A stretch of DNA of 39,079 nucleotides from positions 1-39,079 of the forward strand of contig CALXSJ010000028.1 of NCBI GenBank assembly GCA_944391115.1. Reading direction: 5' to 3'. A model generated the notes under the pieces. It did not search any database. It saw only the letters and a list, made by a program, of their open reading frames with translations, and had not been told where the DNA came from. The position numbers and the translations under genes are program-made. This stretch comes from an uncultured Victivallales bacterium (GTDB lineage: Bacteria; Verrucomicrobiota; Lentisphaeria; Victivallales; UBA1829). Positions 7,240 to 32,453 of the stretch are shown here, piece after piece. The stretch's first letter is position 1; the number at the start of each line of letters is the position of its first letter.

Positions 7240-8094
7240 ATGAAGCCGAGCACCTGGACGATTTTTTCGCTGCGGGAAAATCCGCAGGAACTGCAATGCT
7301 TTGCCGACGCCTTTTCATCCGTCTGGAAACGGAAGGAGTTTTATGCAGACTGCATGAGAGCCTCCCTGGATTCCGCTTCTCCGCTGCCGCAGTGGTATCT
7401 GCTTCGGAATGCGGACGGGGATATTGCCGGGGGAGCGGGGCTGGTCACCAGTGATTTCACTTCGCGCGCCGATCTCCGGCCCTGGCTTTGCGCGCTTTTC
7501 GTCAGGGAGGAGTATCGCTCCCGCAGCTGCGGCGCACTTCTGATCGCCCATCTGAAGCGGGAAGCGGCGCGTCTTTCCTATCGTGAGATTTTTCTCTGCA
7601 CGGATCTCGTCGGATATTATGAAAAATACGGATTTGAATTTGCCGGCATGGCGCGGGATCTCTCCGGCGGGTCGTCGAGGATCTACCGCGCGGAAACACT
7701 GCCGGAGTGGGATTTCCTGACGCTTGCAGCAAAACAGAGACAGTTTCCGCGGAAACTCTCTCCATTCGTGGAAGCCGGCGGCGTTTCCGCCGCGTTTCTG
7801 ACGGACCGCGGAAACATCCACACCGGAGTGTGCATCGATACCGCCTGTTCCCTCGGAATGTGCGCGGAGCGCGCCGCCGCGGCATCCATGATCTCGGCGG
7901 GTGAATGCCACGCCGTGAAACTTGTGTGTCTGATGCCCTCCGGCGCGCCCGGACTTCCCTGCGGCGCATGCCGGGAATTCTTCATGCAGCTTGCGCCGGA
8001 AAACAGCGGAATGGAAATCCTCGTTTCCGGGTCCGGCGGCCTCCGGACGGTGCGCCTCGGCGATCTTCTGCCCTCCTGGTGGGGGGCGCGATAG
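7240..8094 (+). CDS. GNAT acetyltransferase-cytidine deaminase fusion protein
   Basis: The N-terminal half (about residues 1-155) reads as a GNAT acyl-CoA-dependent transferase. It has a beta strand LCALFV (83-88) leading into an acetyl-CoA loop-like REEYRSRSCGALLI, then the late motif GYYEKYGFEFAG (125-136). The C-terminal half (about 165-284) is a zinc deaminase of the cytidine deaminase type. It carries CAER with zinc ligand C208 and catalytic E210, and PCGACREF with ligands C241 and C244. The segment before CAER (TGVCIDTACSLGM) fits a subgroup whose substrate is not firmly known, so cytidine is not assured. The gene has AAGGAGG five bases before ATG and ends with TAG. It converges on the minus-strand operon ending at 8147. 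A single frame covers both domains without a break, so the fusion is real in this sequence. Confidence 0.85.
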   Translation: MKPSTWTIFSLRENPQELQCFADAFSSVWKRKEFYADCMRASLDSASPLPQWYLLRNADGDIAGGAGLVTSDFTSRADLRPWLCALFVREEYRSRSCGALLIAHLKREAARLSYREIFLCTDLVGYYEKYGFEFAGMARDLSGGSSRIYRAETLPEWDFLTLAAKQRQFPRKLSPFVEAGGVSAAFLTDRGNIHTGVCIDTACSLGMCAERAAAASMISAGECHAVKLVCLMPSGAPGLPCGACREFFMQLAPENSGMEILVSGSGGLRTVRLGDLLPSWWGAR

Positions 8095-8146: not shown

Positions 8147-10303
8147 TCAGCTCTGTAGTTTTTGTGTGATGTGCACAAACGGCGCGTGATGGGGATACTG
8201 CGTGATGTCCGGTTCCTCAAGAAAATCCGGAGCGTAGTATTCCGCCAGATCCTCTTCCCTGCGCGCCGGACAGCATCCTTCCCGTCCGTTGCAGAAGAGC
8301 TTGCGTTTCTTCCCGGAGAGGTCTTCCTGCAGAACGGCGCACTCTTCCAGCATATGGAACTCCAGGCGGAGCGAGTCTCCGTCCCCGTGCACTTCATACA
8401 GCCTGTGGGCGTTGCAGCATGGCAGGATCAGCATCGAGTCGATCAGATATGCCGCTGTGAAGCCGGCCGGTTCCAGACGGTATTCCCGCGAGAGTTTTCC
8501 GCCGGCCCGGAACCGGAATCCGACGCTGCATTCCGTTTCCGTGTTCAGAAGATAGAAAATCCGGACCGGCACCCCGCTGATTTCCGTATGGTAGATCGCA
8601 TAGCGGATCTGCTCCGGACAGACGGCGTCGGGATCGGACATTTCGCCGGTGTTGAGGATCCGCAGGAGCGCTTCGGCAAAAGGAAAGGCGCCGCCGTCGC
8701 CGGGATACTCCCTGACGGCCACGGTCCAGACCATTCCCTTTTCGACGCGGTGCTCGATCAGGGCCGGTTCCGCCAGCAGATCCGAATCGTACTCCCGGAT
8801 ATGGTAGGAGAATCCCGCCAGAATCCGGGCGTTTTTTTCTGTGATTTCGATTTCCGCCGGCGTGATTTTGCCCATCCACCACGGATCGTGGCGGCTGCCC
8901 CAGTAGGGGATGGCGTCGCCGAGCAGAGAATCCGCCGACACGAATTTGAACCCGCGGACGTCCGTCGTTTTCCAGCCTTTGATGCGGAGTCCGCACAGCT
9001 CCGAAAGATCGCCGTCCCTGTACAGGCGCAGTTCCGTCCGCTTTCCCGAAACATTGCAGTGGGCCGGCCAGATCAGCAGATGTCCGCCGTTCCGGACGTA
9101 TTCGAGCAGTTTTGCGTATTGCATGTCGTTCATGTCGTTCCAGCCGACGAATGCGAGCGCCTTGTAGCGGGAAAGATCCTCCGCCGTTTCCAGCGGGACC
9201 ACGTCATACTGCCCTCCCGCCGGATTGCCGGAACGGTTGCAGTCCCCCATGACGGTTTCATGGAACACGTTCTCCTTGCGGAGCAGAGCCTGCGGAAGCT
9301 TCCATCCCTGTTCGGGCGGACCGGCCTCCCATTCCGTCCCGTTCTCATACTGCCCCCAGGCATACGGATTCCAGAGATTCGGAAAACCTTCGTTCCTCCC
9401 GAAAAGAATTCCGATGCGGGTTTCCGGGTCGGATGTCGGACGCTGGTGAATCATGCAGAAGCGGTAGAACTCCCGCAGAATCCGCCGGGAACGCAGCAGG
9501 TTCGGATGATCGCGGTCGAACATGTTCCAGCGCGTTTCCCCCCACTTGTCCACCTGGTAGGTGTAGTGTCCGCTCTCCGGATAAATGATGTCGGCGCCCT
9601 GCAGAAAGGCAAGATACAGGCACAGTTTCCAGCGTTTCATCCAGAGCTCGTCCATGCGGATTCCGCCGTACCAGCCGATGGCGATGTGGGTCCCCCATAT
9701 GGTATGGCAGGCGCGCGCCATTCCCCGGTAGGCGGGAAGCAGCTCGAGGGGATTGCCGGGACACATCTCATGAAGAAAGAAATCGGCTCCCGCCTCCTTC
9801 TGATACTGCAGAATCTGGGAGGATTCCACAATGCACAGGGGTGTTTCGGAGCCCATGATGGAACGCTGCAGCTCCACGAACTTCCGGAAATACTCTACCA
9901 GTTTCTTTCGCGCGTCTGCCGGAGAATCCGCTTTTTCCAGACTTTTCCAGGTTTTCGCCGCGCGGTTCATTGTATAGTATTTGGGCCAGTAGAGAATGCC
10001 GCCGCCTTCGCCGAGTCCGTAGACTCCCAGCAGCGCGTCGCCGGCCTCTTTCACGATCTCCTGAAAATCCTCCGGAGAGTAAACCGAGCTTTTCCGGAGT
10101 TCGCCGCGCGGAACGATTTCCCCGAGGAGAATCCGGATGCCGTTCTTCCGGCAGAAGCGGACCGCCGCCATCGCCTCCTCCTTGTTCTGCGGAAGCGTGC
10201 CGCGGACCAGCAGTCCGCCCTTGAGAGCCAGCATCTCGCGGAGTTTTTCCACTGTGACCGGATAGGAGTACCCGACAATCGGCCTGATGTCCCGTTTGTT
10301 CAT
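8147..10303 (-). CDS. Putative glycoside-hydrolase-like protein, unrecognised family
   Basis: The protein has 718 residues. I do not recognise the family with certainty. The first ~330 residues alternate strands and helices as in a TIM barrel (for example IRILLGEIVPRGE, ADFFLHEMCPG, GADIIYPESGHY). This is followed by a Rossmann-like stretch (ALAFVGWNDMNDMQY, GGHLLIWPAHCNVSG) that resembles the glutamine-amidotransferase-like domain found after the barrel in some beta-galactosidase-type enzymes. The end looks beta-rich. No signal peptide is visible, so it is probably cytoplasmic. AGGAG lies six bases before the ATG. It is the last gene of the minus-strand operon, 21 bases after the large secreted hydrolase-like protein, which suggests action on imported glycan fragments. 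The function is inference. Candidate acids such as the Glu in YPESGHY are untested. Confidence 0.7.
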   Translation of the reverse strand: MNKRDIRPIVGYSYPVTVEKLREMLALKGGLLVRGTLPQNKEEAMAAVRFCRKNGIRILLGEIVPRGELRKSSVYSPEDFQEIVKEAGDALLGVYGLGEGGGILYWPKYYTMNRAAKTWKSLEKADSPADARKKLVEYFRKFVELQRSIMGSETPLCIVESSQILQYQKEAGADFFLHEMCPGNPLELLPAYRGMARACHTIWGTHIAIGWYGGIRMDELWMKRWKLCLYLAFLQGADIIYPESGHYTYQVDKWGETRWNMFDRDHPNLLRSRRILREFYRFCMIHQRPTSDPETRIGILFGRNEGFPNLWNPYAWGQYENGTEWEAGPPEQGWKLPQALLRKENVFHETVMGDCNRSGNPAGGQYDVVPLETAEDLSRYKALAFVGWNDMNDMQYAKLLEYVRNGGHLLIWPAHCNVSGKRTELRLYRDGDLSELCGLRIKGWKTTDVRGFKFVSADSLLGDAIPYWGSRHDPWWMGKITPAEIEITEKNARILAGFSYHIREYDSDLLAEPALIEHRVEKGMVWTVAVREYPGDGGAFPFAEALLRILNTGEMSDPDAVCPEQIRYAIYHTEISGVPVRIFYLLNTETECSVGFRFRAGGKLSREYRLEPAGFTAAYLIDSMLILPCCNAHRLYEVHGDGDSLRLEFHMLEECAVLQEDLSGKKRKLFCNGREGCCPARREEDLAEYYAPDFLEEPDITQYPHHAPFVHITQKLQS

Positions 10304-10324
10304 GTTTTCTCCTCTCCTTCCATG

Positions 10325-13300
10325 TCACCGTTTTCCGCCGGGAAGAATCAGAATCACGGCGACCTCATTCCAGTCTTTGAGCTTCAGATCCACCACCCAG
10401 ACGTTACCCTCACGCGTGACGGGCGCATGGAATGCCTGTTTCCTGCGTCCGTTTTCATCCCCGCAGAGAACCTGCGGTTTTTCCGCCGAGCGGACCGTGA
10501 ACTTCCGCGAAACGCAGCTGATGATCCGTTCCTTTCCGATGATGAATCCTTCCCCCAGTTCCAGCGGCGTAATCGGATACATGTGGTCGGTGGCGAACGC
10601 TCCGCCGAATTCCGGATCGGGTTCCAGCCCGTAGCGCGCGTAGAGCACGCCGTGGCGGAGCCCGACGATGACCGCCCGGTTGTAATATTTCCCGCTGAGC
10701 TCCTTCGGGGTCCGTTCCTGATAGCCAAGCGTGAGCGGGCTGCCGGAGAGCTGGGCCAGCGCATGACAGCGCACGATGGCAGGCTTCGCCGTATGTTTGA
10801 CCTCCATTGCTGTGCCGGGGCCTCCGCTTTCGCAGAAGCTGTAGGAGGGCAGCCCGTTGGTTTCCATGGTGACGGGATGATTGTTGTTGTACATGAGTTT
10901 CCCCTTGGCGGCGACATGTTTCACGATCTTCGCCCGCGCGGAGCTTCCGGCGTTGATGTAGTCGTAGATTTTCCGCCAGATCGTGCCGTCCGGATTCAGG
11001 TCGACGGTGAGTTGATCCCATTTGTCGTAGCTGCAGCGTTTGTTGTTGTCGAGCTCCTGATCGCATCCCGGGACGAACTGATCCAGATAGACGCCGTCCA
11101 GCCCGACCACGTCGAGAACATAGTCGATCTGTTCCAGAACATGCTTGAGACGGTAATTGCCTTCCGCGAAATGCACGAGGAGATTCAGATCCCCCGGATG
11201 GGCGTAGCTGGTGTCCACCACGGCATGGCCTTCTGCATTGCGCATGAGGGAATCGGAAAAGGGGGAGTTCCGGAGAATGGCGTTCTGTTCATCGTTGAGC
11301 TCCAGTCCATAGACGCCGCCGCCTTTTCCGCGCCGCCCGTCAGGCAGCTTCTCCCCGCCTGGAACGGAACTGCGCTTGATGTTGAGAATGTTCGATTCCA
11401 GGCGCGCGAGACATTTCGCCCATGGAATCGCTTTTTTGATCCGCGCCATTTCGGCCTGCTTTTTGATCCGGTAGTCCTCCCGGTTTGTCCAGCGGGAATT
11501 GGCGTCCCATTCAAACCACTGGGAAAGCGCGTAGTGATCCACCGCGGGCATTTTGGAGGGGCGGGAGCCGAAGCCGAAATATCCGGTCATTGTCCGGTTC
11601 AGATTCAGGTCGCGCCGGACCTGATTGACGAAATCGAAATAGGTCGCGCCGGCTTTGGGATAGAAGCGGCGGACGAGAGTTTTCTTCGCGAGCGGGCCGG
11701 AGGCGGGAAATCCCAGATGCGGATTGTCCAGAATCAGATCCCGTCTTGTGCGGTGGAACCCGGACTGATTCCGCAGCAGGTCGTCGGCGACGTAAATGCC
11801 AAGGGATCCGCCCTTGAGAGGCTGGGTGAAGAAGCTCGGATTCTGACCGCTCATCCCGTCCTTGATGCTCTTTTCCAGGAGTCCTCCCAGAAAAGTCTGC
11901 GGAGCGTTCAGCGGATCTCTCGCAGTGGTGATGAAACGGGTGCGCATGCCCTGATCCGTCCCGGAAAGATTCGTGATTTCATCGGTCACATGGAACTGTT
12001 CCCCCAGAACTTCGACGGTGCGTTCCATGCGGAAGAAGGGATTGCTCTGACGAATGGTGACGCGTCCCCCGTTCCGCCTGATTTCCGGAGGCGTCTTTCC
12101 GTCCGCAAGATTCCACTCCGTGAAGTTCATTTTCCCCTTTCCGGGGAAGGAGAAGGCGTCCTGCACGTAATATTCCATGCCGTCGCAGCGGATGACGAAG
12201 CCGCCGTTCCGGTGGAAGTCCAGGAGATAGCCTCTGCCTTCGAGTGTGAAAAGACGGGTTCCGAAACTGCGGTTCGCCACGGAATCCGTTTCCGCGGGGC
12301 GCATTTTCTCAAGCTCCGCATCCGGAACGTATCCGATGAAGATATCCTGAAACACGGAGGAAGCTGTCGCAAGCGCGCCTTTTTTCCGTTCCGTGCTGTA
12401 GGAGGAGAGCAGAGTCAGGCGGTTTGTTTCCGCTTTTTCAATCCGGTTGTCGGCGCCGATTTCCACATAATGAACCCGGTCGGAAATGTCGAACAGGAAG
12501 TTGTATCCCTCTTCCGGGCCGTTTTTCAGACGCTTGTCCACATCGCGCCCGTTGCCGAAAAAGGTGACGAACTGTCCTTCGCGCCACCAGTCGCGTTTCG
12601 GATCTTTCGGGAGCGTGGTGTCCATGAACGCGCCGCGGCGCAGCAGACGGCTTTCCCCCTGCACGGTCATTTTGTCCAGTTTGCTTTCATTGAGCAGCAG
12701 CCCTGTGTGGTAGTTCCATCCGCCGGGAGCCGGAGTGGCAAGCCAGAAACGGCAGCCCAGCACGGGAGTGAATTCTTTTTTCCTCGGCATCGCGGGAAAT
12801 TCGACTGTGAACTGCTTGTCTTTCTCGTCCGGCGCGAATGTTCTGCCGGGATGGGAGTGGAACGGGATGAATGTTCCGCCGGTTTTCCAGCAGGGCGCCG
12901 CCGGTTCCTTTCGGGGTTCGGCGCTCCGCATGGCGTTGACCTCGATATCCTGCAGGAAGAGGATTGCAATGTCGGTCACATGCAGGGAGGCATCCCTGTG
13001 CGGGTCGTTGTCGCTCCTGAGCCTGAAGCTGTTGATGAATTTAAGCGTGTTTCCGCCCCGCCGGAGCAGATCCGTGATGTCCAGGTGATAGGTGTATCCC
13101 TCCTGGCGGGGAGCCAGAATGCGGTGGTCGAGATTTTCCGGATTGCCGTCTCCGAAAAACACCAGAAGTCCGCTTCCGCTCCACCATGCGCGGCGGGGAT
13201 TTTTCGTCCGGCTTTCCAGATGCATGCCGCGGCGCAGCAGCCGCTGCTCCCCGGTGTTTGTCCTTCCCGTCAGGCGGGTCCCGTTGAGCTCCAGTCTGAG

Positions 13301-13534
13301 GGTGTTGTTCCAGCCTCCGGAGGGATGCCCGATCCAGGCGTTGAACCGCAGTATGGCCCGTTTGTCCGCCGCGGGAAGCGGCAGGGAAAATTCAATTCCC
13401 TTCGCGTTTTCCTCCCCGGTCCGGGGGATTTCGAGGTTTTCCGGATGGCGGAAGACCGTTGTGCCTTCCAATCCGGATGCCGCGAGCATGCTTCCCGTCA
13501 GAATCGGAAGCAGAAATGTCTTCAGATGTTTCAT
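10325..13534 (-). CDS. Large secreted hydrolase-like protein with duplicated N-terminal beta domain
   Basis: The protein has 1069 residues with an N-terminal signal peptide (about residues 1-20, hydrophobic FLLPILTGSMLAA). Residues ~46-200 and ~244-402 are two copies of one beta-rich domain. They share GGWN, RLLRRG, a WW-x(2,3)-G...FFG-x-G block and EGY-x(4)-DI-x-D, which suggests carbohydrate binding. A galactose-mutarotase-like beta region follows (about 430-600). The C-terminal ~400 residues look like a TIM barrel with GLDGVYLDQFVPG (811-823) and YNNNHPVTMETNG (882-894). The aspartate in VYLDQF and the glutamates nearby are candidate catalytic acids. I cannot assign a GH family. It lies 34 bases after the esterase gene and 21 bases before the next gene in a tight operon. 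AAGGTG precedes the ATG. Confidence 0.75.
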   Translation of the reverse strand: MKHLKTFLLPILTGSMLAASGLEGTTVFRHPENLEIPRTGEENAKGIEFSLPLPAADKRAILRFNAWIGHPSGGWNNTLRLELNGTRLTGRTNTGEQRLLRRGMHLESRTKNPRRAWWSGSGLLVFFGDGNPENLDHRILAPRQEGYTYHLDITDLLRRGGNTLKFINSFRLRSDNDPHRDASLHVTDIAILFLQDIEVNAMRSAEPRKEPAAPCWKTGGTFIPFHSHPGRTFAPDEKDKQFTVEFPAMPRKKEFTPVLGCRFWLATPAPGGWNYHTGLLLNESKLDKMTVQGESRLLRRGAFMDTTLPKDPKRDWWREGQFVTFFGNGRDVDKRLKNGPEEGYNFLFDISDRVHYVEIGADNRIEKAETNRLTLLSSYSTERKKGALATASSVFQDIFIGYVPDAELEKMRPAETDSVANRSFGTRLFTLEGRGYLLDFHRNGGFVIRCDGMEYYVQDAFSFPGKGKMNFTEWNLADGKTPPEIRRNGGRVTIRQSNPFFRMERTVEVLGEQFHVTDEITNLSGTDQGMRTRFITTARDPLNAPQTFLGGLLEKSIKDGMSGQNPSFFTQPLKGGSLGIYVADDLLRNQSGFHRTRRDLILDNPHLGFPASGPLAKKTLVRRFYPKAGATYFDFVNQVRRDLNLNRTMTGYFGFGSRPSKMPAVDHYALSQWFEWDANSRWTNREDYRIKKQAEMARIKKAIPWAKCLARLESNILNIKRSSVPGGEKLPDGRRGKGGGVYGLELNDEQNAILRNSPFSDSLMRNAEGHAVVDTSYAHPGDLNLLVHFAEGNYRLKHVLEQIDYVLDVVGLDGVYLDQFVPGCDQELDNNKRCSYDKWDQLTVDLNPDGTIWRKIYDYINAGSSARAKIVKHVAAKGKLMYNNNHPVTMETNGLPSYSFCESGGPGTAMEVKHTAKPAIVRCHALAQLSGSPLTLGYQERTPKELSGKYYNRAVIVGLRHGVLYARYGLEPDPEFGGAFATDHMYPITPLELGEGFIIGKERIISCVSRKFTVRSAEKPQVLCGDENGRRKQAFHAPVTREGNVWVVDLKLKDWNEVAVILILPGGKR

Positions 13535-13568
13535 TCTTCACCTTTTTCTGAATATGTGAAATTGCGGA

Positions 13569-14843
13569 TTATTTTGTCAGCTGCTGCCGGATGAATTCCA
13601 GACGGAGCGATTCGAAATCTCTCATTTTCTCTCCCCATCCGTGTCCGGTGAAGGGGCCGTATAGCAGCCGTTTTTCCTGTCCGGGAATGCTGTTGAAAGC
13701 TGCAAGCACCGAACGCGGCGGACAGAGCGTGTCGATCATGCCGACTGCGACAATGACCGGAACGCGGATTTCCCGGCAGAAGAAAGCCGTATCATAATAT
13801 CCGGACATTTCCGCGGAGTTCCTGACTTTGGAAAGCAGACGGGGCCATCCCGGCTGCGGTCCGCGATGATCGCACAGTGCGGGAATTTCCGCGGCCGCGG
13901 CAGTGACTTTCGGATACAGCGCGGCCATCATCAGGGAAAACGCGCCGCCCTGGCTCTGTCCGTCCATGACCAGGTGCCTGCCGTCCCATTCCGGGCGGGC
14001 CGTAAGATAATCCAGAATCCGCTGAACCCCCAGAATCGATTTGTAATAGTAATATTTTTCACGGTCCGGCGCTCCCTGGAGAGAGTAGAGCAGGGGGGTG
14101 TTCAGAGCTTTGTATGCCTTCTGATCCTGTTTTCCGTCCGCCAGGCCCATGCGGCGATGATGCACATTGATCGTGGCCGTAATGGTGTTCGCCCGGTTGA
14201 AGGGACGCCATATGCCGGGGCCCGCCGGCGGAATTTTCACGAGAATCGGATATCTGTCCGGCTTCTCCGGAATGCTGATGTAACTGTAAGTTCTGGTCCC
14301 GTCGTAATTTGCGCATGTCGCCTCGTAATGACGGAAGGCGCCTGCCGTTTTCATGAATTTCATCTGGAAGTCCGCTGGAATTTCCCGGTCGAACTTCTCT
14401 TTTGCCGTTTTCCAGAATGTCAGGAAGCCGGCCTCCGGTTCCGCTCCCGGGCGGATTTTTTCCACATCGAATCCCGCCGCGGCAACCAGAGGCGGGAATG
14501 CGGGCTTTCCGTTTTTCTTCAGCAGGATCCGGCAGCGGAGAAAACCCGGTTCCTGAAGCGTGCCGGAGACGGAGACTTCCCGGTGTTCCGCAGGATTGCA
14601 GTCTTTCTGGAGGAGTTTCCTGTTCCTGTCGTCCAGCAGGGTGATCCGGAATGTCTTTTCCGCATCCGGAATTTCCGGCATCCGGATGCGGAATTCCGCC
14701 GTTTCACCGCAGCGGTAGAGGGGCGGCATTCCCGCGTTTCCGTTGAATGAGATTTTCGGAAGGTTTCCGTCTCCGGACGCAAGAGCCGCCGGCACAAGCG
14801 CCGCCGCAGACAGAAGAATCTTTTTCAATACGTTGCTGTTCAT
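13569..14843 (-). CDS. CE7-like acetyl xylan esterase / deacetylase, secreted
   Basis: This alpha/beta hydrolase resembles carbohydrate esterase family 7 (acetyl xylan esterase/cephalosporin-C deacetylase). It would remove acetyl groups from sugar chains. In 424 residues: a signal peptide (1-23, LLSAAALVPAALAS), a beta-rich N-terminal domain (~30-125), then the hydrolase domain with nucleophile S297 in GQSQGG, acid D371 in GMIDTLCPP and base H401 in FTGHGW. All three are in CE7-like context. I chose ATG at 14843 because AAAGGAG lies upstream at good spacing and a signal peptide follows. The open frame extends 84 codons further, but over the pseudopilin gene, in composition typical of a shadow frame. 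It starts 17 bases after the pseudopilin stop and precedes the large hydrolase gene. Confidence 0.88.
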   Translation of the reverse strand: MNSNVLKKILLSAAALVPAALASGDGNLPKISFNGNAGMPPLYRCGETAEFRIRMPEIPDAEKTFRITLLDDRNRKLLQKDCNPAEHREVSVSGTLQEPGFLRCRILLKKNGKPAFPPLVAAAGFDVEKIRPGAEPEAGFLTFWKTAKEKFDREIPADFQMKFMKTAGAFRHYEATCANYDGTRTYSYISIPEKPDRYPILVKIPPAGPGIWRPFNRANTITATINVHHRRMGLADGKQDQKAYKALNTPLLYSLQGAPDREKYYYYKSILGVQRILDYLTARPEWDGRHLVMDGQSQGGAFSLMMAALYPKVTAAAAEIPALCDHRGPQPGWPRLLSKVRNSAEMSGYYDTAFFCREIRVPVIVAVGMIDTLCPPRSVLAAFNSIPGQEKRLLYGPFTGHGWGEKMRDFESLRLEFIRQQLTK

Positions 14844-14860
14844 GCGGAAATATCTCCTTT

Positions 14861-15631
14861 TCATTCGCATTCCATGGGATGTCTGGTTCGTCCGCCGGTC
14901 CACTGCATGTATTTGGGCTTGGTGTTTCCGGTGGGAGCGGTTTTCAGTGTCAGGTAGGGATTGGCCCGGCTGGAAACCGCGGTCCCGCTGACGGAGGAAT
15001 CCCCTTTGAGAATATTGACCACGCCGTTGTGGCGGTAGGCGTCCGCCTGTCCGTTCCCTATATCGGTTGAAGTCGTTTCGCGCACCGCCTCGCATCCCCG
15101 GTTCTCGATCGCGTCCTTGCAGTCCATGACAATATAGACAATGGAGGGTTTGCGGAGTTCTTTCAAACGCGCGGGTCGGAAGGTGGAACTCAGGCTGACA
15201 TCCGTCTGAAAAAGCTGATTGCGCCCGATTCCGCGTCCGTTGTATCCGTATCCGGTATAGGGTGTCGGCAGTTTCCGGCGATAGGTCGTGTTCTCCTCCA
15301 CCTGAAGCTTGTCCGGCTCAATCAGCGCGTTGTCCTGGAAAATTCCGGCGGAGGCATATTTCAGCAGACAGAGACCTTTGTTCCACGAGCCACCTTCAAT
15401 ATATGCCTCCTGTTCTTCCCTGCTGCTCCAGCAGGGGTAAAAATCCCTGTAATCGTCGATATAGAAGGCGAAGGCGCTTCCCATCTGCTTGAGATTGCCG
15501 ACGCATTGAATGGCCTGCGCCTTTCCCTTCGCCTGCTGGAGAGCCGGCAGAAGCATGGATGCGAGAATGGCGATGATCGCAATCACGATTAAAAGCTCGA
15601 TCAATGTAAATGACGATTTTCCGGATTTCAT
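14861..15631 (-). CDS. Pseudopilin-like protein (prepilin-type N-terminal methylation domain)
   Basis: The 256-residue protein has the class III/type II-secretion style N-terminus [18 protein letters not shown] (residues 7-24), a single hydrophobic helix with the conserved Glu at +5 of the mature end. The residue before Phe is Ser, not the usual Gly. The globular part is rich in Tyr and Asn. Near the C-terminus a His is followed after nine residues by Asp ([14 protein letters not shown]), matching the H-x9-DG tail of Planctomycetes/Lentisphaerae pseudopilins except that Gly is Ser. ATG 15631 is chosen because the methylation motif must be near the start and a GGAGCGGGAGG stretch precedes it; upstream extension to 15682 enters the regulator gene. 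It sits between regulator and esterase, so it is probably expressed only with this glycan locus. Confidence 0.88.
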
Positions 15632-15656
15632 TCCCTCCCGCTCCTTTTTTGTTATA

Positions 15657-16748
15657 TTATATTTTATTGTTCCAGTCTGCAATCCCGTTTTCCTCTGCCG
15701 CGTGTTTCAGGCCGGTCACGGGACGGACCGACTGCCGGAAGACGCATTCCGCCGGCACGACACTGACCTCATGCCTGTGATAGTCCGGAGAAGACAGAAT
15801 CCGGAATGCCTCGCGGACGATTGCTTCGCAGTCATGCCGGACGGAGGTCAGTCCGCATTCCCGCGCCTCCGGAATGTCGTCGAATCCGGCCATGCAGAAG
15901 AGGTCAAGGAGATTGACACCGCAGTCGCCGGCGAGTTCCATCAGCTTCAGGGCGACCAGATCGAAGCTGAAACAGACCGCGGTATATCCGCCGGCCTTCA
16001 GCGCTTTGAGCAGTTCGATGCGGTTCGGAAAGTCAATGGTGTAGAGACGGTCTTTCCGTTCCGGAACCATCCCGTGGCGGATTTGCCATCGGGAAAAGGC
16101 CTTTTCCAGCTCGAATCGGTTGGCGAAAAAGGCTTCCTGCACCAGAGCGACATGTCTGTGGCCCAGTTCGTAAAGATGCTCGAGAAGAGTTTCCAGCGCC
16201 CTGCCTTCGTCGCTTCTGACGCATGGAAAGCATCCGCCGCCCTCCTGCCACCAGTCATTGAGGATCACGGTCCGCATGGCGCTTTTTTTCAATTGAGCGT
16301 ATACCTGCGATTCGAGTCTTGCCGGGCCGGGGAAACGCAGCATGGCGTCGCATCCGGCCGCCGCCGCCTTCCGGATGAAGGAAACCTCGTCTTCCGCCGG
16401 GGAACCGAACAGGAGGGGAATGTTCCTTGCCGCCGAGGCGTCCGCGATTGTTTCGTAAAAGCGGGCGAAAACGGGATTGCTGTTCAGACGGAACGGAACT
16501 GCCAGCTTGCGGATCTCGCGGCATTTCTCCTGTTTCCGGACAAACACGCCGACACCGTTCCGTCTCAGAAGAAAACCTTTCCGCTCCAGTTCCGCCAGGG
16601 CCTTCTGAACCGTGACATAAGAGAGGTGGTATTCTTCCGCCAGTTTCTGAATGGATGGCAGTCTGCCTTCCGGCGGGATTTCTCCGGAACGTATCCAGTT
16701 CAGAATGTCCTGTTTCAGCGATTTTGATTTTTCTTTGCCGATAGTCAT
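15657..16748 (-). CDS. GntR-type DNA-binding / LacI-type sensor transcriptional regulator
   Basis: The 363-residue protein begins with a winged helix-turn-helix of the GntR kind (residues ~8-72: [19 protein letters not shown], then [22 protein letters not shown]). Residues ~82-345 resemble the periplasmic-binding-protein-like ligand domain of LacI/GalR regulators ([45 protein letters not shown]). This architecture is known from AraR-like sugar-responsive regulators. The ligand is unknown, most likely a sugar from the locus it heads. The gene is first in the minus-strand operon, with the pseudopilin 25 bases downstream. A consensus promoter (16801-16828) and TATATAGC motifs lie upstream, suggesting autoregulation. 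Confidence 0.9.
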
Positions 16749-16768
16749 TGTTCTTTAACTATATATAT

Positions 16769-16917
16769 GCTATATACTCTAATTGCTCTTCCTGCAATTA
16801 ATTATAAGCGGAACTCCCGATTTGTCAAGATGCGGGGAGGGATATTTTTGTTTTTTTTTTACGAGGCGGGAGAGGGAAAGAATCTTTTATTTTATATAGC
16901 TATATTAAAGCTATATA
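16769..16917. promoter_or_regulatory. Candidate operators: repeated TATATAGC octamer
   Basis: GCTATATA occurs at 16769-16776 and 16910-16917, and its complement TATATAGC at 16893-16900. The last lies in the perfect 12-base palindrome ATATAGCTATAT (16894-16905). One site lies between the minus promoter and the regulator start codon, where binding would block transcription. The cluster at 16893-16917 lies upstream of the plus promoter. The operator role is inferred from position and symmetry. Confidence 0.5.
16801..16828 (-). promoter_or_regulatory. Sigma70-type promoter of the regulator operon
   Basis: Read on the minus strand, TTGACA (16828-16823) is followed after 16 bases by TATAAT (16806-16801), both perfect consensus boxes. 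It lies about 50 bases upstream of the regulator start codon. Confidence 0.8.
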
Positions 16918-17116: not shown

Positions 17117-18175
17117 ATGAGTGGAAAGATCAGAATCGGCATCATCGGCTGCGGAACCATCGGTTCCGTTCATGCCGATGCGTATGCCAAAGTCAAAAAC
17201 GCGGAACTTGTCGCATTGTGCGATATTCTGCCGGACCGCCTGAAGGAAAAGGCGGAACGTCACAAGGTTGCCCTCACTTATACGGATTACAGGGAACTGC
17301 TTGCCAATCCGGACATCGACGCGGTCAGCGTCTGCGTTCCCAACGACATGCATGCCCCGATCGCCATCGACGCGTTCAAGGCCGGCAAGCATGTCATGCT
17401 TGAAAAGCCCATGACGCTCAACGCCGGGCTCGGCAGGGAGATCCTCAAGGCGCGCGACGCTTCCGGAAAGCAGCTGCAGATGGGCATGGTCTGGCGTCAG
17501 ACGCCGCAGGCGGAAGTGGTCCGCGACGCCATTGCCAACGGACGCCTTGGCGAGGTTTATCAGATCCGCGTGAAGCTGATCCGCCGCCGCGGCATTCCCG
17601 GACTCGGCGGATGGTTCACCACGAAAGCCCGCTCCGGCGGAGGCGGCCTGATTGATATCGCAGTTCATTTCCTGGATCTGGTCATGTGGATCACCGGTTA
17701 CTGGAATCCGACCCGGGTCAGCGCCAGAACGTATGCGAAATTCGGCAGTCCCATGAAGGACTACCATTACGTCAGCATGTGGGCGGGACCCCCGAATTAT
17801 GAGGGAACGTTCGACGTGGACGATTACGCCGCCGGTTTTGTCCGCTTCGGCGAAAAGGCGACTCTCTCCTTTGAAGTTGCCTGGGCCTGCAACGCCGAGG
17901 ATGAAAGTTACGTGGAGCTCCTGGGCGACAAGGGCGGCGTCCGCGTCGGGGAAAGCAGGACCGTGCTGCATACCGAAGTGGACAACATGATCGCGGACAT
18001 TGATCTCAAGTTCCAGAATGACCGCGACCGTTTTGCCGCGGAAATGGAAAAGTTTGTCGATGCCGTTCAGGGCAGGGGCGAAGTCGCCGCCACCGGAGAG
18101 GAAGCTCTGGTCACCATGTCTCTGCTGGACGCCATCTACAAGTCCAGCGAGATGAATTGCGAGGTCGAAGTCTGA
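17117..18175 (+). CDS. Gfo/Idh/MocA family oxidoreductase
   Basis: This is an NAD(P)-dependent sugar or inositol dehydrogenase-like enzyme of 352 residues. The N-terminal Rossmann domain has GIIGCGTIG (residues 8-16) and Asp at the end of the second strand (CDIL, about 36). The family EKP motif is present (E96-K97-P98), where Lys is expected to take part in catalysis. The C-terminal alpha/beta domain includes GGGLIDIAVHFLDL, whose His is the usual second catalytic position. AAGGAG is well spaced before ATG. It has its own promoter and a strong terminator, so it is monocistronic, and it is divergent from the sugar-responsive-type regulator. A role in oxidising a sugar released by that locus is plausible. 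The substrate cannot be told. Confidence 0.92.
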   Translation: MSGKIRIGIIGCGTIGSVHADAYAKVKNAELVALCDILPDRLKEKAERHKVALTYTDYRELLANPDIDAVSVCVPNDMHAPIAIDAFKAGKHVMLEKPMTLNAGLGREILKARDASGKQLQMGMVWRQTPQAEVVRDAIANGRLGEVYQIRVKLIRRRGIPGLGGWFTTKARSGGGGLIDIAVHFLDLVMWITGYWNPTRVSARTYAKFGSPMKDYHYVSMWAGPPNYEGTFDVDDYAAGFVRFGEKATLSFEVAWACNAEDESYVELLGDKGGVRVGESRTVLHTEVDNMIADIDLKFQNDRDRFAAEMEKFVDAVQGRGEVAATGEEALVTMSLLDAIYKSSEMNCEVEV

Positions 18176-18479: not shown

Positions 18480-20069
18480 ATGCGTGCCGTCTCTCTTTTT
18501 TTCGGACTTCTGCTGCTTGCAAACCTGGAGGGAGCTTCCCCATACGAGGGCGGGCCGCGCCCGGATCCCGCCGGAAAGATCAATGTCATTCTCCGCGAGG
18601 GATGGAAAAAGGCGGAGCTCGCGCCGCCGGAAACCGCCTCGGACGCGGTGTTCCTGCGCCGCGTCTACCTGACCGTCGCCGGACGGATTCCCGGCATCGC
18701 CGAAGCGCGGCGTTTTCTCCGCGACAAGGCAAAAGACAAACGGGAAAGGCTGATCGACGCCCTGATTGATTCGGACGGCTACGGCGATCTTCTCGCCATG
18801 CGTTTTGCCGACATGCTCCGGATCAAATCCGAATTCCCGATCAATCTCTGGCCGAACGGCGTGCAGGCGTGGCACCGGCAGATCCGCGCCGAACTGCTTG
18901 CGGACCGTTCCTACCGCGACATGGCACGCGACATGCTGACCGCCTCGGGAAGCAATTTCCGCGTTCCGCATGCGAATTTCTTCCGCGCCTCCGCCGATCG
19001 TTCTCCGCTTGGACTGGGCAAGGCGGTTGCGCTGACTTTTCTCTGCATCCGCCTTGAAAATCTTCCTGAAGACGATCAGAAGGCCTTTGCGGAATTCTTC
19101 TCGCGCATCCGCTATAAAAGCACCTATGAATGGAAGGAGGAGATCGTCTATACCGACTATCATCCGGCGCGCGTCAAAGCCCGCGCACTCGACGGCGAAA
19201 CGTTCACGATCGACGCGCCTGATACAGATCCGCGGCGGGTGTTCGCCGACTGGCTTCTGCGGGAGGACAATCCCTATTTTGCGCGCGCGGCGGTCAACCG
19301 CGTCTGGCACTGGATTTTCGGGCGCGGCATCATGCCGGACACCGACAACCTCGCATTGCTTCCCACGTTCTGGGACCGCGTCCGGAACGTCTTCGGGGGA
19401 AGAGAGGAGAGCAACCCGCCCTTCAATCCGGAGCTTCTCGCTTATCTGGAGAATGAGTTCCGCTCCTCCAATTACAGCATCAAGCATCTCTACCGCACAA
19501 TCCTCAACTCCGAAGCCTTTCAGGCGAGTGCGATGAACTCCGACCCGAAGGCCGCGGCGCATTTCGCCTCGTATCCGGTCCGCCGCCTGGACTCCGAAAT
19601 CCTGATCGACGCGCTGGCCGATGCAAGCGGCGGCTATGACCGCTACATGAGCGTGATTCCCGAGCCGTTCACGTTTCTTCCGCCCGCGACGCGCGCCGTC
19701 ACGATCGCCGACGGCAGCATCTCTTCCGGCGTGCTGGACAGTTTCGGCCGTCCGCCGCGGGATTCCGGCCGTTACAGCGAGCGCAACGCGCTCAGCACGG
19801 AGTCCCAGCGTCTCTATCTTCTGAATTCCGGGATGCTCTACCGCCGTCTTTCGAGCCTTCCCGGGAAACTCTTCCGGCGGAAACGGATCAATGACCGCGA
19901 ACGCCTGAACCTCCTTTATCTGCGGATGCTCTCGCGCTATCCGACGAAGGAGGAGTTTCAGATTTTCGACCGTTACCGTAAATCATTCGCTCCCCGGCAG
20001 CGCTACCGCGTCTGGTCCGATGTCGCCTGGGTGCTGGCGAATTCCAAGGAATTTCTTTATTATCACTGA
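18480..20069 (+). CDS. DUF1549 and DUF1553 domain protein, secreted
   Basis: The 529-residue protein starts with a short signal peptide (residues 1-20, LFFGLLLLANLEGAS). The DUF1549 signature FLRRVYLTVAGRIPG lies at about 57-71, followed by the KRERLIDALIDSDGY block. The DUF1553 signature NPYFARAAVNRVWHWIFGRG is at about 263-282. Such proteins are abundant in Planctomycetes and relatives and are normally encoded beside DUF1501 proteins, as here. Their biochemical function is not established. No CxxCH haem motif is present, so the cytochrome domain that often precedes DUF1549 is missing. ATG 18480 is chosen because GGAGG lies upstream and a signal peptide follows; the frame extends to 18354 without support. 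It is the first gene of a four-gene operon, 11 bases before the next. Confidence 0.9.
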   Translation: MRAVSLFFGLLLLANLEGASPYEGGPRPDPAGKINVILREGWKKAELAPPETASDAVFLRRVYLTVAGRIPGIAEARRFLRDKAKDKRERLIDALIDSDGYGDLLAMRFADMLRIKSEFPINLWPNGVQAWHRQIRAELLADRSYRDMARDMLTASGSNFRVPHANFFRASADRSPLGLGKAVALTFLCIRLENLPEDDQKAFAEFFSRIRYKSTYEWKEEIVYTDYHPARVKARALDGETFTIDAPDTDPRRVFADWLLREDNPYFARAAVNRVWHWIFGRGIMPDTDNLALLPTFWDRVRNVFGGREESNPPFNPELLAYLENEFRSSNYSIKHLYRTILNSEAFQASAMNSDPKAAAHFASYPVRRLDSEILIDALADASGGYDRYMSVIPEPFTFLPPATRAVTIADGSISSGVLDSFGRPPRDSGRYSERNALSTESQRLYLLNSGMLYRRLSSLPGKLFRRKRINDRERLNLLYLRMLSRYPTKEEFQIFDRYRKSFAPRQRYRVWSDVAWVLANSKEFLYYH

Positions 20070-20080: not shown

Positions 20081-21409
20081 ATGGACAGACGGGATTTTCT
20101 CAAAACAATGGCGCTGCTCGCCGCCTGCGGGGCGGCGGACAGACTTGCGGGAAACGCCTTCTGCGCGTCTCCCGTGCCGGGGGTGCGGAAATGTTCTCCG
20201 GGCGTGCGCTCCGTCATCGAACTCTGGATCTGGGGCGGGCCTTCCCATCTTGAGACGTTTGACCCGAAGCCGAATGCGGGGCATGCCTACAACGGCGGAT
20301 TCGGGGACATCCCGACGAACGTTCCCGGCATCCGGATCAGCGAATTTCTGCCGAAGCTCGCGCAGCAGATGGACAAATTCTCGATCATCCGCAGCATGGG
20401 CCACGGCACCAACGCCCACGAAACCGCCACCTATCTGATGCAGACCGGAAGGATGCCCGGCGACGGCATCACCTATCCGGCGATCGGCGCAGTGATCGCC
20501 ATGCTCAAAAGCAGGGATTACAAGGGAAAGCTCCCTCCCTATATCGCGCTGACCACGAACAAGGGCCGCTTCTCCGAAAACGGATTTCTCAGCGACAAAT
20601 ACAAACCCCTTGCGACAGGATCGAATCCGAATGCCGCGAAATTTCAGGTGGACGGCTTCGTCCCCCCCGGCAATGTGACTTCCGAGCAGATTCGGCGCCG
20701 TCTCCGCTTCGCCTCGGAGCTCGACACTTTCGGGCACGCGCTGAGCGGATGCCCCGAACTGCTCGCGTTTGAAAAATCAGGCGATCAGGCCCAGGCCGTC
20801 ATCAACGGCGACGACGCGAAGGCGTTCGATCTGAATCTTGAATCGAAGGAGATGCGCGACCGTTACGGACGCAACACCTTCGGGCAGTGCTGTCTTGCCG
20901 CGCGCCGTCTCGTCGAGGCGGGCGTGCCTTACATCACCATCAACGCGCAGGGCTGGGACACTCACAAAAAACATTTCGAGGCGATGAAACGGCTCGGTCC
21001 TGAAATGGATCAGGGCTTTTCCGCGCTGCTGTCCGATCTGAGCGAACGGAAGCTTCTCGATTCCACGCTGATCTGGTGCACCGGAGAATTCGGGCGCACG
21101 CCGCGCGTGGATTACGGGGAACCATGGAACGGAGGGCGCAATCATTTCTGCCACTGCTTCAGCACAGTCGTCGCGGGCGGCGGATTTGCCGGCGGCCGGG
21201 TTCTGGGTGCGTCCGATGAACGAGGGGAACGCCCCGTGGAGCGCCCGGTAAGCCCGGTCGATCTCCTCTGGAGCATCTACGAGCTCGCCGGAATCGATCC
21301 TGCCGGGAAACTGCCCAATCCGCGCGGACTGGATCTGACCATTCTTCCGCCCGACGGGGGAAAAAGCAGAATCAAAGAGCTTTACAAAAATCCGGAGGGG
21401 AAGGCATGA
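20081..21409 (+). CDS. DUF1501 domain protein with Tat signal
   Basis: The 442-residue protein has a twin-arginine start (MDRRDFLKT, then a hydrophobic Ala/Leu stretch), so it is probably exported folded. Recognisable DUF1501 blocks are WIWGGPSHLETFDPKP (about 49-64), GHGTNAHETATY (about 107-118), GWDTHKKHFE, and CTGEFGRTPRVD near the C-terminus. The family belongs to the alkaline phosphatase/sulfatase-like fold, and the His/Asp residues in these blocks are likely metal ligands. The substrate is unknown. GAGAGGAG precedes the ATG. The stop overlaps the next start (ATGA), so translation of the PPC-domain gene is probably coupled. It pairs with the DUF1549/1553 gene as in Planctomycetes. Confidence 0.92.
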   Translation: MDRRDFLKTMALLAACGAADRLAGNAFCASPVPGVRKCSPGVRSVIELWIWGGPSHLETFDPKPNAGHAYNGGFGDIPTNVPGIRISEFLPKLAQQMDKFSIIRSMGHGTNAHETATYLMQTGRMPGDGITYPAIGAVIAMLKSRDYKGKLPPYIALTTNKGRFSENGFLSDKYKPLATGSNPNAAKFQVDGFVPPGNVTSEQIRRRLRFASELDTFGHALSGCPELLAFEKSGDQAQAVINGDDAKAFDLNLESKEMRDRYGRNTFGQCCLAARRLVEAGVPYITINAQGWDTHKKHFEAMKRLGPEMDQGFSALLSDLSERKLLDSTLIWCTGEFGRTPRVDYGEPWNGGRNHFCHCFSTVVAGGGFAGGRVLGASDERGERPVERPVSPVDLLWSIYELAGIDPAGKLPNPRGLDLTILPPDGGKSRIKELYKNPEGKA

Positions 21410-29688: not shown

Positions 29689-30771
29689 ATGCGCAGGCAT
29701 TCAGAAAAAAGCCCCCTTTACCTGCTGCCGGAAAGGGTGGACCGCAGCAAAGCTCTCCCCGTCTATCAGCAGATTTGCGACCAGCTTCGCAAGGAACTGG
29801 TATTGAACGGATACCGGCGCGGAGAACGCTTTTATTCCTATCGCAAACTGGGAGAACTTTACAAGGTGGAACTTCGAACCGTCATGGCAGCGCTGGAACC
29901 GCTTCTGAAGGACGGACTTCTGATCAAACGCGCCGCCAGCGGCATTTACGTGGGGGACGCGATTGACAAGGACATTTCGCTGCGGGAGGTCGGGACTGTC
30001 TGGTATGCCGTGATCGGAGAGAAGTTTTCCCATCCATTTTATTTTAATGTTTTTGAAGGTGTGGAAGCCGAGGCGGAACGTTTCGGACTGCGGGTCATGG
30101 TCGGCTTGAAAAAGGATATCCGCAGCTTTGAACGCTGGTTCCGCCCGCAGCCCGGTGACGGACTGATCATTTCCGGCTGCTGCACGAGGGAATACCTGGA
30201 TGCCGTCGGAGCCAGATGCAATGATAACATCATCGTCGTCGGCAGTTACGATTTTTCCGGCAATTTCGGCTGTGTCACAAGTAATTATCATCGCGCGGTG
30301 CAGAAAGCCCTGGAAATGGCACTTGATGCCGGATGCCGCCGGATCGGAATCATCTCCGATTCAGTGAAACGCCTGATTTCCATGGAACTTTACGCTGCGG
30401 CGGATGTCTGCCGCCGTGCTCATGCGGGAGTGGTCGAGGATATCTGTCATGTGACCGATCCCGATGAAAACGGCTATGAGGCGATGAAACGCCTGAGCGA
30501 TTTCAAGCCGGATTGCGTCCTGCTGACGGAACCGGCATTTATCGGCGCCATGGAATATCTTCAGGCACACGGGCAGCGCTGCCCGGAAGACGTGTTTATC
30601 ATCCGCTACGGGAAGGAAGTCAATGACGAACGTTATCTGAATCTCGCCGCAGTGAATGTCGAGAGCGACAGTGAAATTCTCGGACGCAATGCATTGCGGA
30701 TGCTGATCGCCAACAGCAAAGACACCTTGCGCTTTGAAATGACGCTTTCCGTTCCATCCCGGAACAAATAA
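29689..30771 (+). CDS. GntR-type DNA-binding / LacI-type sensor transcriptional regulator (second locus)
   Basis: This 361-residue regulator has a GntR winged helix (about residues 20-88: ALPVYQQICDQLRKEL, YSYRKLGELYKVELRTV, LLKDGLLIKRAASGIYVG). A LacI/GalR-like sensing domain follows (about 100-355: FSHPFYFNVFEGVEAEAERF, GDGLIISGCC, GCRRIGIISDS, KPDCVLLTEPA). It is related in design, not closely in sequence, to the regulator at 15657-16748. I chose ATG 29689 because GGAG lies six bases upstream and family proteins have about this length. The frame is open back to a TTG at 29599, so a longer form cannot be excluded. A terminator follows, and the next operon has its own promoter, its probable target. 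Confidence 0.87.
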   Translation: MRRHSEKSPLYLLPERVDRSKALPVYQQICDQLRKELVLNGYRRGERFYSYRKLGELYKVELRTVMAALEPLLKDGLLIKRAASGIYVGDAIDKDISLREVGTVWYAVIGEKFSHPFYFNVFEGVEAEAERFGLRVMVGLKKDIRSFERWFRPQPGDGLIISGCCTREYLDAVGARCNDNIIVVGSYDFSGNFGCVTSNYHRAVQKALEMALDAGCRRIGIISDSVKRLISMELYAAADVCRRAHAGVVEDICHVTDPDENGYEAMKRLSDFKPDCVLLTEPAFIGAMEYLQAHGQRCPEDVFIIRYGKEVNDERYLNLAAVNVESDSEILGRNALRMLIANSKDTLRFEMTLSVPSRNK

Positions 30772-32412: not shown

Positions 32413-32453
32413 ATCATGTTCCGTCAAAAAGGTTGAGAGAAAGGAGCATCTCC

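Follow-up and report, generated by a model that had tools for sequence, protein, structure and literature searches.

A pilin-like protein between a sugar-sensing regulator and glycan-active enzymes: a predicted operon type of Lentisphaerota

The five-gene operon and its flanks

We analyzed a stretch of 39,079 nucleotides (the window) from the genome of an uncultured Victivallales bacterium. The tight five-gene operon that the first-pass annotation had placed on the minus strand is real, and with the called starts the gaps are exactly 25, 17, 34 and 21 bases (Table 1). It begins with a regulator that is, from its domain matches, a GntR-type DNA-binding domain joined to a LacI-type sugar-sensor domain, and continues with a pilin-like protein, a carbohydrate esterase and two larger proteins. 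By eye, signal peptides are present at the start of the esterase and the 1069-aa protein and absent from the 718-aa protein, so that the product of the last gene is probably cytoplasmic. Neither of these two larger proteins matched a solved structure at the E-values used. The 1069-aa protein is nevertheless probably a glycosidase of an undescribed family: D818, W839 and D840 are invariant among 10 aligned members, three of the 10 members carry a CBM9, and the one structure match obtained with a profile of ten members was discarded as chance-level. A plus-strand ORF opposite the operon (8162-13594, 1810 aa) was taken to be a coding-bias shadow, and no Rfam element reached the gathering threshold in the window.

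Both hexamers of the promoter before the regulator are identical in a genome of the same genus (G001). Two nearby elements may serve as operators, namely TATATAGCATATATATAG and an imperfect inverted repeat whose halves, ATATATAG and GCTATATA, are conserved in G001. The 25-bp spacing, the single perfect promoter and the lack of a convincing internal promoter in the five-gene operon suggest that the genes are co-transcribed.

The window also holds a second regulator-pilin-glycosidase set, entirely on the plus strand, which the first-pass annotation of this operon does not mention. When its pilin-like product was scanned as a protein, PF07963 scored 20.5 bits, just below the cut-off of 21.2.

Table 1. 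Features of the window, with position, strand and match or remark
Feature	Position	Strand	Match or remark
GH42-like protein, 718 aa, without signal peptide	8147..10303	-	only sub-threshold GLMA_2nd and Glyco_hydro_42M matches
1069-aa protein with signal peptide	10325..13534	-	no Pfam or NCBIfam match
CE7/AXE1-like carbohydrate esterase, 424 aa, signal peptide	13569..14843	-	AXE1 PF05448, 81.6 bits (cut-off 21), 5.9e-23, scanned on the longer ORF 13569-15095
Pilin-like protein, 256 aa	14861..15631	-	N_methyl PF07963, 29.7 bits (cut-off 21.2)
Regulator, 363 aa	15657..16748	-	GntR PF00392, 61.2 bits; Peripla_BP_3 PF13377, 44.2 bits; both above cut-offs
Candidate operator TATATAGCATATATATAG	16759..16776	-	between promoter and regulator start; identical in G001, flanks differ
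Sigma-70 promoter TTGACA-16-TATAAT before regulator and operon	16801..16828	-	consensus match 12/12
Candidate second operator, imperfect inverted repeat	16893..16917	.	12 nt, 92% complementary
GFO/IDH/MocA oxidoreductase, divergent, sharing the intergenic region with the operon	17117..18175	+	PF01408, 1.9e-29
Second-set regulator, GntR + Peripla_BP_3	29689..30771	+	
Second-set pilin-like protein, 241 aa	31687..32412	+	PF07963, 23.1 bits in the genome search, above cut-off
GH123-type glycosidase, 1016 aa	32454..35504	+	PF13320, 1.1e-20, on the longer ORF 32373-35504

The pilin-like proteins

The predicted mature start of the window pilin is Phe8 (SS/FTLIELL, the slash marking the cut; FTLIE occupies residues 8-12). 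The mature helix has Phe at +1 and Glu at +5, and position -1 holds Ser instead of the Gly or Ala of a type IV pilin or class III signal peptide. The same departure runs through the host genome, where just 10 of 113 pilins carry Gly or Ala at -1 and 103 lack it, while Phe1 and Glu5 are kept (113 of the 115 pilins were used, two very short ones being omitted). When loci in other genomes were sorted by record title, Gly or Ala was found in 7 of 35 Lentisphaerota motifs, in 61 of 62 from Verrucomicrobia and others, and in 6 of 6 from Planctomycetes; a sample from Victivallis vadensis gave Gly in 1 of 20 and Ala in none of the 20. This loss and the contrast with non-Lentisphaerota loci are new here.

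Well-studied prepilin peptidases require Gly(-1). Since this residue is mostly absent, prepilin processing is uncertain, which counts against the reading that we prefer below. The counts at -1 would suit a protein that is never cleaved and no longer a pilus subunit, serving as an inner-membrane-anchored, periplasm-facing binder of oligosaccharides or enzymes, and PF07596 has been described as a solute-binding family in the available part of PMC2754498. However, 114 of the 115 host-genome proteins match the pilin motif, all 114 have Phe1, and the information rises from 0.54 bits at -1 to 4.32 bits at +1, a jump that is partly built in, because Leu3 and Glu5 are required by the search motif, which also restricts positions 1, 2 and 4. 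Without cleavage and assembly, the fixation of Phe1 and this jump would be difficult to account for, and we regard an uncleaved anchor as improbable.

The AlphaFold model of the window pilin (pLDDT 71, pTM 0.73, with a head partly of low confidence) consists of a 51-residue first helix plus strands. VIA-align placed Thermus PilA4 first (Z 6.8, which is under 8; rmsd 3.1 over 119 aligned residues), and all nine entries listed were type IV pilins; Foldseek and a viral-structure search with the model gave nothing at E 0.001 or better. Mean pairwise identity among the pilins is 0.76 in residues 1-30 and 0.18 past residue 55. Aromatic residues make up 13.4% of the heads as compared with 8.6% in control genes, a content that may commonly be equally high in ordinary pilin heads. 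No carbohydrate-binding family was listed in an NCBIfam scan of 113 host-genome pilins; the Pfam scan covered the window's two pilins.

Placement of pilin genes in the host genome and in relatives

The host genome contains 115 or more genes for N_methyl (pilin-type) proteins, a lower bound because 150 of the 155 candidates were scored. Gene calls were made by a custom script, and 19 of the 115 were re-placed by HMM position. For 69 of them, a regulator of GntR, LacI or AraC type stands no more than 2 kb upstream, whereas the regulator matches within 2 kb downstream are two AraC only. Such a regulator is the next gene upstream for 57 of the 115. Of 51 upstream genes, 50 were used in set A3. For the remaining 46 no GntR, PBP3 or AraC regulator was detected within 2 kb upstream, which counts against our main reading. 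Pairs of PBP3 and pilin within 700 bp number 36, compared with a random-placement mean of 0.9 and a maximum of 4, each contig's extent being approximated in the null by the largest coordinate seen. In V. vadensis there are 53 such pairs against a null mean of 1.9 and a maximum of 8, computed from the 150 pilins and 150 PBP3 domains that were scored; these counts are lower bounds, with 150 of 308 N_methyl and 150 of 196 PBP3 matches scored. Random placement of pilin genes, which the first-pass annotation had named as the outcome that would speak against its proposal, is excluded by these numbers.

A same-strand gene begins within 300 bp 3' of 103 of the 115 pilin genes. DUF4838 occurs in 25 of these 103, and the other families found there include GH67N, CBM9, laminin-G, heparinase, GH123, GH16, GH5, PL8 and AXE1 (the tallies list 25 of 43 and 25 of 38 families). 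The 103 control genes, which a script sampled from the 194 complete genes of pilin-free stretches at hand-chosen round coordinates, carry 212 families, and none of those just named is in the 25 commonest; one DUF4838 match crosses the edge of a control stretch, and its gene is outside the complete genes. A crude signal peptide rule was satisfied by 75 of the 103 post-pilin genes versus 37 of the 194 control genes. Some post-pilin genes encode transporters or oxidoreductases, which counts against the main reading.

A survey of named loci in other genomes covered the best 80 of 444 relatives; of 71 named-locus pilins, 62 were used together with the window's two (A8). In related genomes, a same-strand pilin lies upstream of homologues of the 1069-aa protein at 23 of 24 testable loci, directly so at 20, and this order is kept across genera at about 20-30% enzyme identity. 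The exception, L274, is a 205-aa fragment, and it counts against the main reading. Regulators vary among these loci while the pilin stays; the regulator models used for named loci were built from the host genome and may miss distant regulators. The post-pilin ORF was defined as the longest one whose start is no more than 400 bases away (350 in V. vadensis), and some of these ORFs are therefore spurious. Twenty such ORFs of V. vadensis gave matches to GH5, GH39, GH42, GH2, heparinase, beta-helix and CBM9. The non-Lentisphaerota loci are different, with Gly/Ala kept at -1 and no glycan-degrading family among 25 of the 53 families listed for their 39 post-pilin ORFs. These results support the pilin-like gene as a regular component of glycan-degradation operons in the host genome and in other Lentisphaerota-titled genomes, the group in which the first-pass annotation had proposed a survey.

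Numerous pilin genes might simply be carried along with regulators and enzymes when whole operons are duplicated, with no special role. The paralogue families are indeed large, and distances between pilins did not correlate overall with those between enzymes (Mantel r 0.007, p 0.47, n=37), a result that also counts against the main reading; nor did they correlate with those between regulators (r 0.012, p 0.45, n=33). We discarded global co-evolution of the pilin with either partner. Such hitchhiking is nevertheless very unlikely, given the strongly non-random placement in both genomes and the conservation of gene order between distant enzymes. In addition, heads that have diverged to a mean identity of 0.18 still lie in open genes, which suggests selection for keeping them.

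The first-pass annotation saw no secretion or pilus machinery nearby, and we likewise found no T2SSE, secretin or A24 peptidase match on the window's contig (C28), so that we rejected a local secretion locus. Elsewhere the host genome has 12 T2SSE, 9 secretin and 3 A24 matches; one A24 match is, by eye, a canonical PilD, the PilD-type gene lying on contig C9, and contig C1 carries secretin and T2SSE together. A shared fibre that captures glycan or docks enzymes, functions that are themselves inferred, has as its main rival a dedicated secretion adaptor, in which the pilin would join a T2SS pseudopilus and recognise and push out the enzymes of its own operon, for export and not for glycan capture. 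The machinery on C1, the crude signal peptides of most post-pilin genes and a pilin-enzyme adjacency that outlasts regulator change would all fit such an adaptor. Locally, too, pilins share nearest neighbours with DUF4838 enzymes (7 of 37; null 1.03, p 0.0006) and not with regulators (1 of 33). On the other hand, known type II systems move many substrates with a single small set of common pseudopilins, overall pilin-enzyme co-variation is lacking, and the window pilin falls far below the NCBIfam equivalog cut-offs for T2SS pseudopilins (GspG, 31.5 against 88.85 bits; GspH, 26.3 against 80; GspI, 16.4 against 44.35). We consider the adaptor unlikely. The TonB beta-barrel PF00593 gave no match in the whole host genome, in a search that gives matches in 3 of 14 control genomes; a SusC-type receptor was thus not found.

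Proposed role and comparison with known systems

Our preferred reading, with a probability of about 0.42, is that the operon represents a type recurring in Lentisphaerota, in which a sensor, a dedicated pilin and enzymes are combined, the pilin using a shared pilus or T2SS apparatus and exposing its head as a substrate-specific surface part. When the sugar is present, the regulator would free the shared promoter, and pilin and enzymes would be made together. The pilin-like protein would enter the inner membrane via its near-invariant first helix, and the host's PilD-type peptidase would probably cut just before Phe1 despite the absent Gly(-1). It would then join a single shared apparatus, for type IV pili or type II secretion, whose genes lie elsewhere, and there its variable, aromatic-rich head could hold the glycan, the secreted enzymes or both. 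One common fibre or pseudopilus, with its subunits swapped, might serve more than 100 substrates. The first-pass interpretation, a pseudopilin made only during use of the substrate and acting as tip or dock in place of SusC/SusD, is as a whole partly supported. A wider version seems doubtful to us: a swappable-subunit pilus as the Lentisphaerota answer to SusC/SusD, in which 100-300 polysaccharide operons each supply their own head on a near-identical helix to a single shared fibre that catches glycan and enzymes, and the prepilin peptidase no longer follows the Gly(-1) rule.

The pattern suggests a possible, so far unstudied mode of capturing complex sugars. If true, type IV filament subunits would have a new role, with one common fibre and more than 100 inducible heads, and there would be a prepilin-processing route without need for Gly at -1. 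The pilin may also mark unknown families of glycan-active enzymes, such as that of the 1069-aa protein. How glycan-eating PVC bacteria without SusC/SusD capture polysaccharides is an open matter in print, as far as the available text of PMC8857213 goes. One pilin per enzyme set, in a genome without a TonB-barrel match, provides concrete genes for this question, including those of the cultured Victivallis vadensis DSM 14823.

The first-pass annotation knew of no firm experimental description. This should be put less strongly, since pilus-type proteins or fibres tied to polysaccharide binding are known elsewhere (PMC5394234, PMC4704652 and PMC11131199); for the operon-by-operon pairing, the regulator-pilin-enzyme pattern, no prior description was found in the literature searched. 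The planctomycete whose pili-like surface fibres bind dextran (PMC5394234, Nat Commun 2017) is likewise a PVC bacterium, but the available text never uses the word "pilin" and has no operon-specific pilins. Type IV pilin-like structures have also been tied to polysaccharide adhesion in Ruminococcus albus (Pegden 1998) and Fibrobacter succinogenes (Qi 2007), as cited in PMC4704652, and to chitin in Fimbriiglobus ruber, as cited in PMC11131199. Unlike here, there are 2-6 PilA-type genes per genome (PMC4704652, Table 4), and regulator-pilin-enzyme operons are absent from the available portions of both accounts. The PUL-like loci of Verrucomicrobiota without SusCD (PMC8857213, ISME J) are also polysaccharide loci of PVC bacteria; pilins have 0 occurrences in the available text, which names outer-membrane uptake as further work. 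For the Lentisphaerae strains WC36 and zth2, laminarin transcriptomes are reported to show a rise of secretion-system-related genes on this glycan (PMC11361711).

The DUF1559/SBP_bac_10 (PF07596) and H-X9-DG (TIGR04294) proteins of Planctomycetes and relatives are similar in their N-terminal helix, in a His and an Asp spaced by ten residues close to the end (H201 and D211, near invariant) and in large paralogue numbers, with 74 in Rhodopirellula baltica (PMC2754498, available part). The window pilin differs in scoring below the DUF1559 cut-off (21.0 against 23.3 bits) and in having no TIGR04294 match at E 0.01 or better, although 14 of 113 host-genome pilins do match TIGR04294.

Polysaccharide utilisation loci of Bacteroidota combine SusC/SusD with a sensor and CAZymes. 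The operon type described here differs from them in its pilin-like envelope protein, in its one-component GntR/LacI or AraC sensors and in the missing TonB beta-barrel match of its host. The sensor regulator and glycan-active enzymes of a Sus-type locus are both present, in the operon (GntR/PBP regulator, AXE1 esterase) and genome-wide. With a one-component sugar sensor, then a pilin-like protein and then glycan-active enzymes, the operon type resembles a polysaccharide utilisation locus, and in both kinds of loci each operon unites a regulator that acts as sensor, a protein of the cell envelope and glycan-active enzymes, in many copies per genome.

Operon structure and control region

The first-pass annotation described a pseudopilin built into a minus-strand glycan-degradation operon at 8147-16748, and open reading frames and gene calls both bear this out, giving five minus-strand genes separated by gaps of 25, 17, 34 and 21 bases. 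The 1069-aa protein matched neither Pfam nor NCBIfam. A promoter scan gave six sites in the stretch covered, against 3.0 expected; the one immediately 5' of the regulator matched the sigma-70 consensus fully, and the other two minus-strand promoter-like sites matched at 9 of 12 positions each. G001, a genome of the same genus, shares both hexamers of the promoter without a change and also keeps unaltered an AT-rich near-palindrome between the promoter and the regulator (16759-16776). Based on this layout of promoter and repeats and its conservation in G001, we suggest that the regulator may control its own expression.

Features of the operon, its control region and other gene sets in the window
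Feature	Coordinates	Strand	Remarks
718-aa protein	8147-10303	-	weak GH42-type Pfam matches only
1069-aa protein	10325-13534	-	without Pfam family
Esterase	13569-14843	-	AXE1 (Pfam)
Pilin-like gene	14861-15631	-	N_methyl (Pfam)
Regulator	15657-16748	-	GntR and LacI-type sensor (Pfam)
Sigma-70 consensus promoter	16828-16801	-	immediately 5' of regulator; 12/12 positions
Second repeat	16893-16917		control region of operon
DUF1549/DUF1553 gene	18480-20069		first of three-gene set
DUF1501 gene	20081-21409		second of three-gene set
PPC-domain gene	21406-23562		third of three-gene set
Second regulator-pilin-GH123 set	29689-30771, 31687-32412, 32454-35504	+	same window

In the second set, a HAD-type gene lies between regulator and pilin. 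The three-gene set adjoins a divergent MocA oxidoreductase. The gene at 7240-8094 encodes a GNAT acetyltransferase; Pfam called the GNAT part only, and the C-terminal part of the product resembles a cytidine deaminase by eye (CSLGMCAE...PCGAC). A gene of the peptidyl-arginine deiminase family at 3608-4672 (PF04371, 6e-112) possibly encodes an agmatine deiminase.

Pilin-like genes beside regulators and enzymes

The genome that holds the window (3.66 Mb, 95% complete) contains at least 115 matches to the pilin-type N-terminus N_methyl. Of these 115 genes, 69 have a GntR, Peripla_BP_3 (LacI-type sugar sensor) or AraC domain in the 2 kb upstream, and within 2 kb downstream there was no GntR or Peripla_BP_3 match and only two AraC matches. 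In 45 cases the adjoining upstream gene was a regulator of one of these types read in the same direction, and in 12 it was one in divergent orientation. In 36 cases a Peripla_BP_3 domain on the pilin's own strand ended no more than 700 bases upstream of the pilin-like gene; 300 random placements gave 0.9 such cases on average and 4 at most. The cultured strain Victivallis vadensis DSM 14823 has at least 150 matches each to N_methyl and Peripla_BP_3; with 150 of each scored, 53 pairs lay within 700 bases (null mean 1.9, maximum 8). Random placement, the outcome that would have told against the first-pass annotation, is excluded by both genomes. The V. vadensis genome gave 308 first-look N_methyl candidates, so that the true number may be well above 150.

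A same-strand gene began less than 300 bases after 103 of the 115 pilin-like genes, and less than 100 bases after 83 of those 103. DUF4838 was present in 25 of the 103; the other families, whose tallies overlap, include GH67N, CBM9, laminin-G, heparinase, GH123, GH16, GH5, PL8, GDSL lipase and AXE1, and transporters and oxidoreductases also occur. In 103 control genes with 212 families, none of the families named was among the 25 commonest. The downstream products had a median length of 775 aa (controls, 318 aa), and by a crude rule 75 of 103 carried a signal peptide, against 37 of 194 control genes. DUF4838 (PF16126) is expanded in this genome, with 57 matches, 46 of which have a same-strand pilin-like gene within 8 kb upstream.

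The survey proposed in the first-pass annotation showed that the regulator-pilin-hydrolase order recurs in other Lentisphaerota. Among 80 named pilin loci, the best of 444 relatives in a scan of the genome collection, a regulator lay within 2 kb on either strand in 11 of 22 Lentisphaerota-titled loci with at least 1.5 kb upstream, against 1 of 47 others. The 22 Lentisphaerota-titled ORFs 3' of the pilin gave matches to GH42 (3), pectate-lyase-like proteins (2), a further pilin (3) and, in a single case for each, sulfatase, GH123, GH39, heparinase, CBM9 and laminin-G, among others; for 39 non-Lentisphaerota downstream ORFs, no glycan-degrading family appeared among the 25 of 53 families listed. 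In V. vadensis, the ORFs after 20 pilins, taken systematically from the 150 listed, gave matches to GH5, GH39, GH42, GH2, heparinase, beta-helix, CBM9 and the like. In the loci sampled, the pattern is restricted to one lineage.

Twelve of 40 relatives, related genera among them, carry homologues of the 1069-aa protein; most are only about 20-30% identical, some across part of the protein. Asp818, Trp839 and Asp840 are invariant, CBM9 occurs in 3 of 10 members, and the family is a candidate new glycosidase family. Of 26 loci outside the window's own genome, two run off the contig. In the remaining 24, a same-strand pilin-like gene was the immediate upstream neighbour in 20, and in 3 it lay some 1.2 kb upstream, leaving room for one gene; the last, a 205-aa fragment, had none within 2.5 kb upstream. 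The regulator varies between these loci (GntR and/or Peripla_BP_3, divergent AraC, or none detected), and the pilin-enzyme link is therefore the steadier one.

Pilin sequence and cleavage site

The first helix hardly varies across 113 pilins of this genome (mean pairwise identity 0.76 over residues 1-30), and the heads, the parts beyond it, are divergent (0.18 past residue 55). Close to the end of the sequence, a near-invariant His and Asp are spaced ten positions apart. The heads are rich in aromatic residues (13.4%, against 8.6% in control proteins) and in Tyr (6.9% against 2.9%). In the AlphaFold model of the operon's pilin (pLDDT 71, pTM 0.73), the first helix spans 51 residues and parts of the head are uncertain. 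The nine entries that VIA-align listed for this model were type IV pilins, a likeness that is suggestive only (top match Thermus PilA4, Z 6.8, rmsd 3.1, 119 aligned); Foldseek gave no match to the model at E 0.001 or better.

Classical prepilin peptidases require Gly, less often Ala, before Phe1. This Gly has been lost in most of the 113 pilins, with Gly at -1 in 8 and Ala in 2. Gly or Ala stood at -1 in 7 of 35 motifs from Lentisphaerota-titled loci, in 61 of 62 from Verrucomicrobia and other loci, and in 6 of 6 from Planctomycete-titled loci; of the 20 sampled V. vadensis pilins, one had Gly there and none had Ala. A rival explanation is that the pilin-like proteins remain uncleaved. Phe1 was used in all 114 motif-bearing pilins, although the search motif only limits residue 1, and information content, 0.54 bits at -1, reaches 4.32 bits at +1, a jump affected by the motif, which demands Leu3 and Glu5 and limits residues 1, 2 and 4. 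We infer that the pilins are processed at the normal position by a less exacting peptidase. A PilD-type gene on another contig, C9, has two CxxC pairs and GWGDVK by eye, and two further A24 genes lie elsewhere in the genome.

Possible function and comparison with known pili

We propose that a sugar would induce the operon, that pilin and enzymes would be co-transcribed, and that the pilin would be processed and then assembled by shared machinery, to act in surface capture or docking. T2SSE (12 matches) and secretin (9) all lie on contigs other than that of the window, and TonB-receptor barrels had no match in this genome and matches in 3 of 14 control genomes. The clearest hint that pilin and enzyme are functionally coupled is that their neighbourhood is kept across genera (23/24) and that pilin and DUF4838 enzyme share nearest neighbours in 7 of 37 cases (null 1.03, p 0.0006). 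However, pilin-enzyme distances showed no overall correlation, which counts against such coupling. A pilin that served as a secretion adaptor, instead of bearing a glycan-binding head, would account for these observations nearly as well.

Verrucomicrobiota polysaccharide loci without SusCD, with uptake left open, appear in PMC8857213, and PMC11361711 reports that laminarin raises secretion-system-related genes. PMC2754498 gives 74 DUF1559 genes for Rhodopirellula baltica, and term counts in PMC10880615 and PMC6388578 gave no pilin. As far as the titles and abstract starts listed in our searches of open-licence literature reach, operon-specific pilins have not been described; polysaccharide binding by pili is already known, with examples in dextran on pili-like fibres (PMC5394234), citations of Fimbriiglobus ruber pili and chitin (PMC11131199), and citations of pilin-type polysaccharide adhesion in Ruminococcus albus and Fibrobacter succinogenes (PMC4704652).
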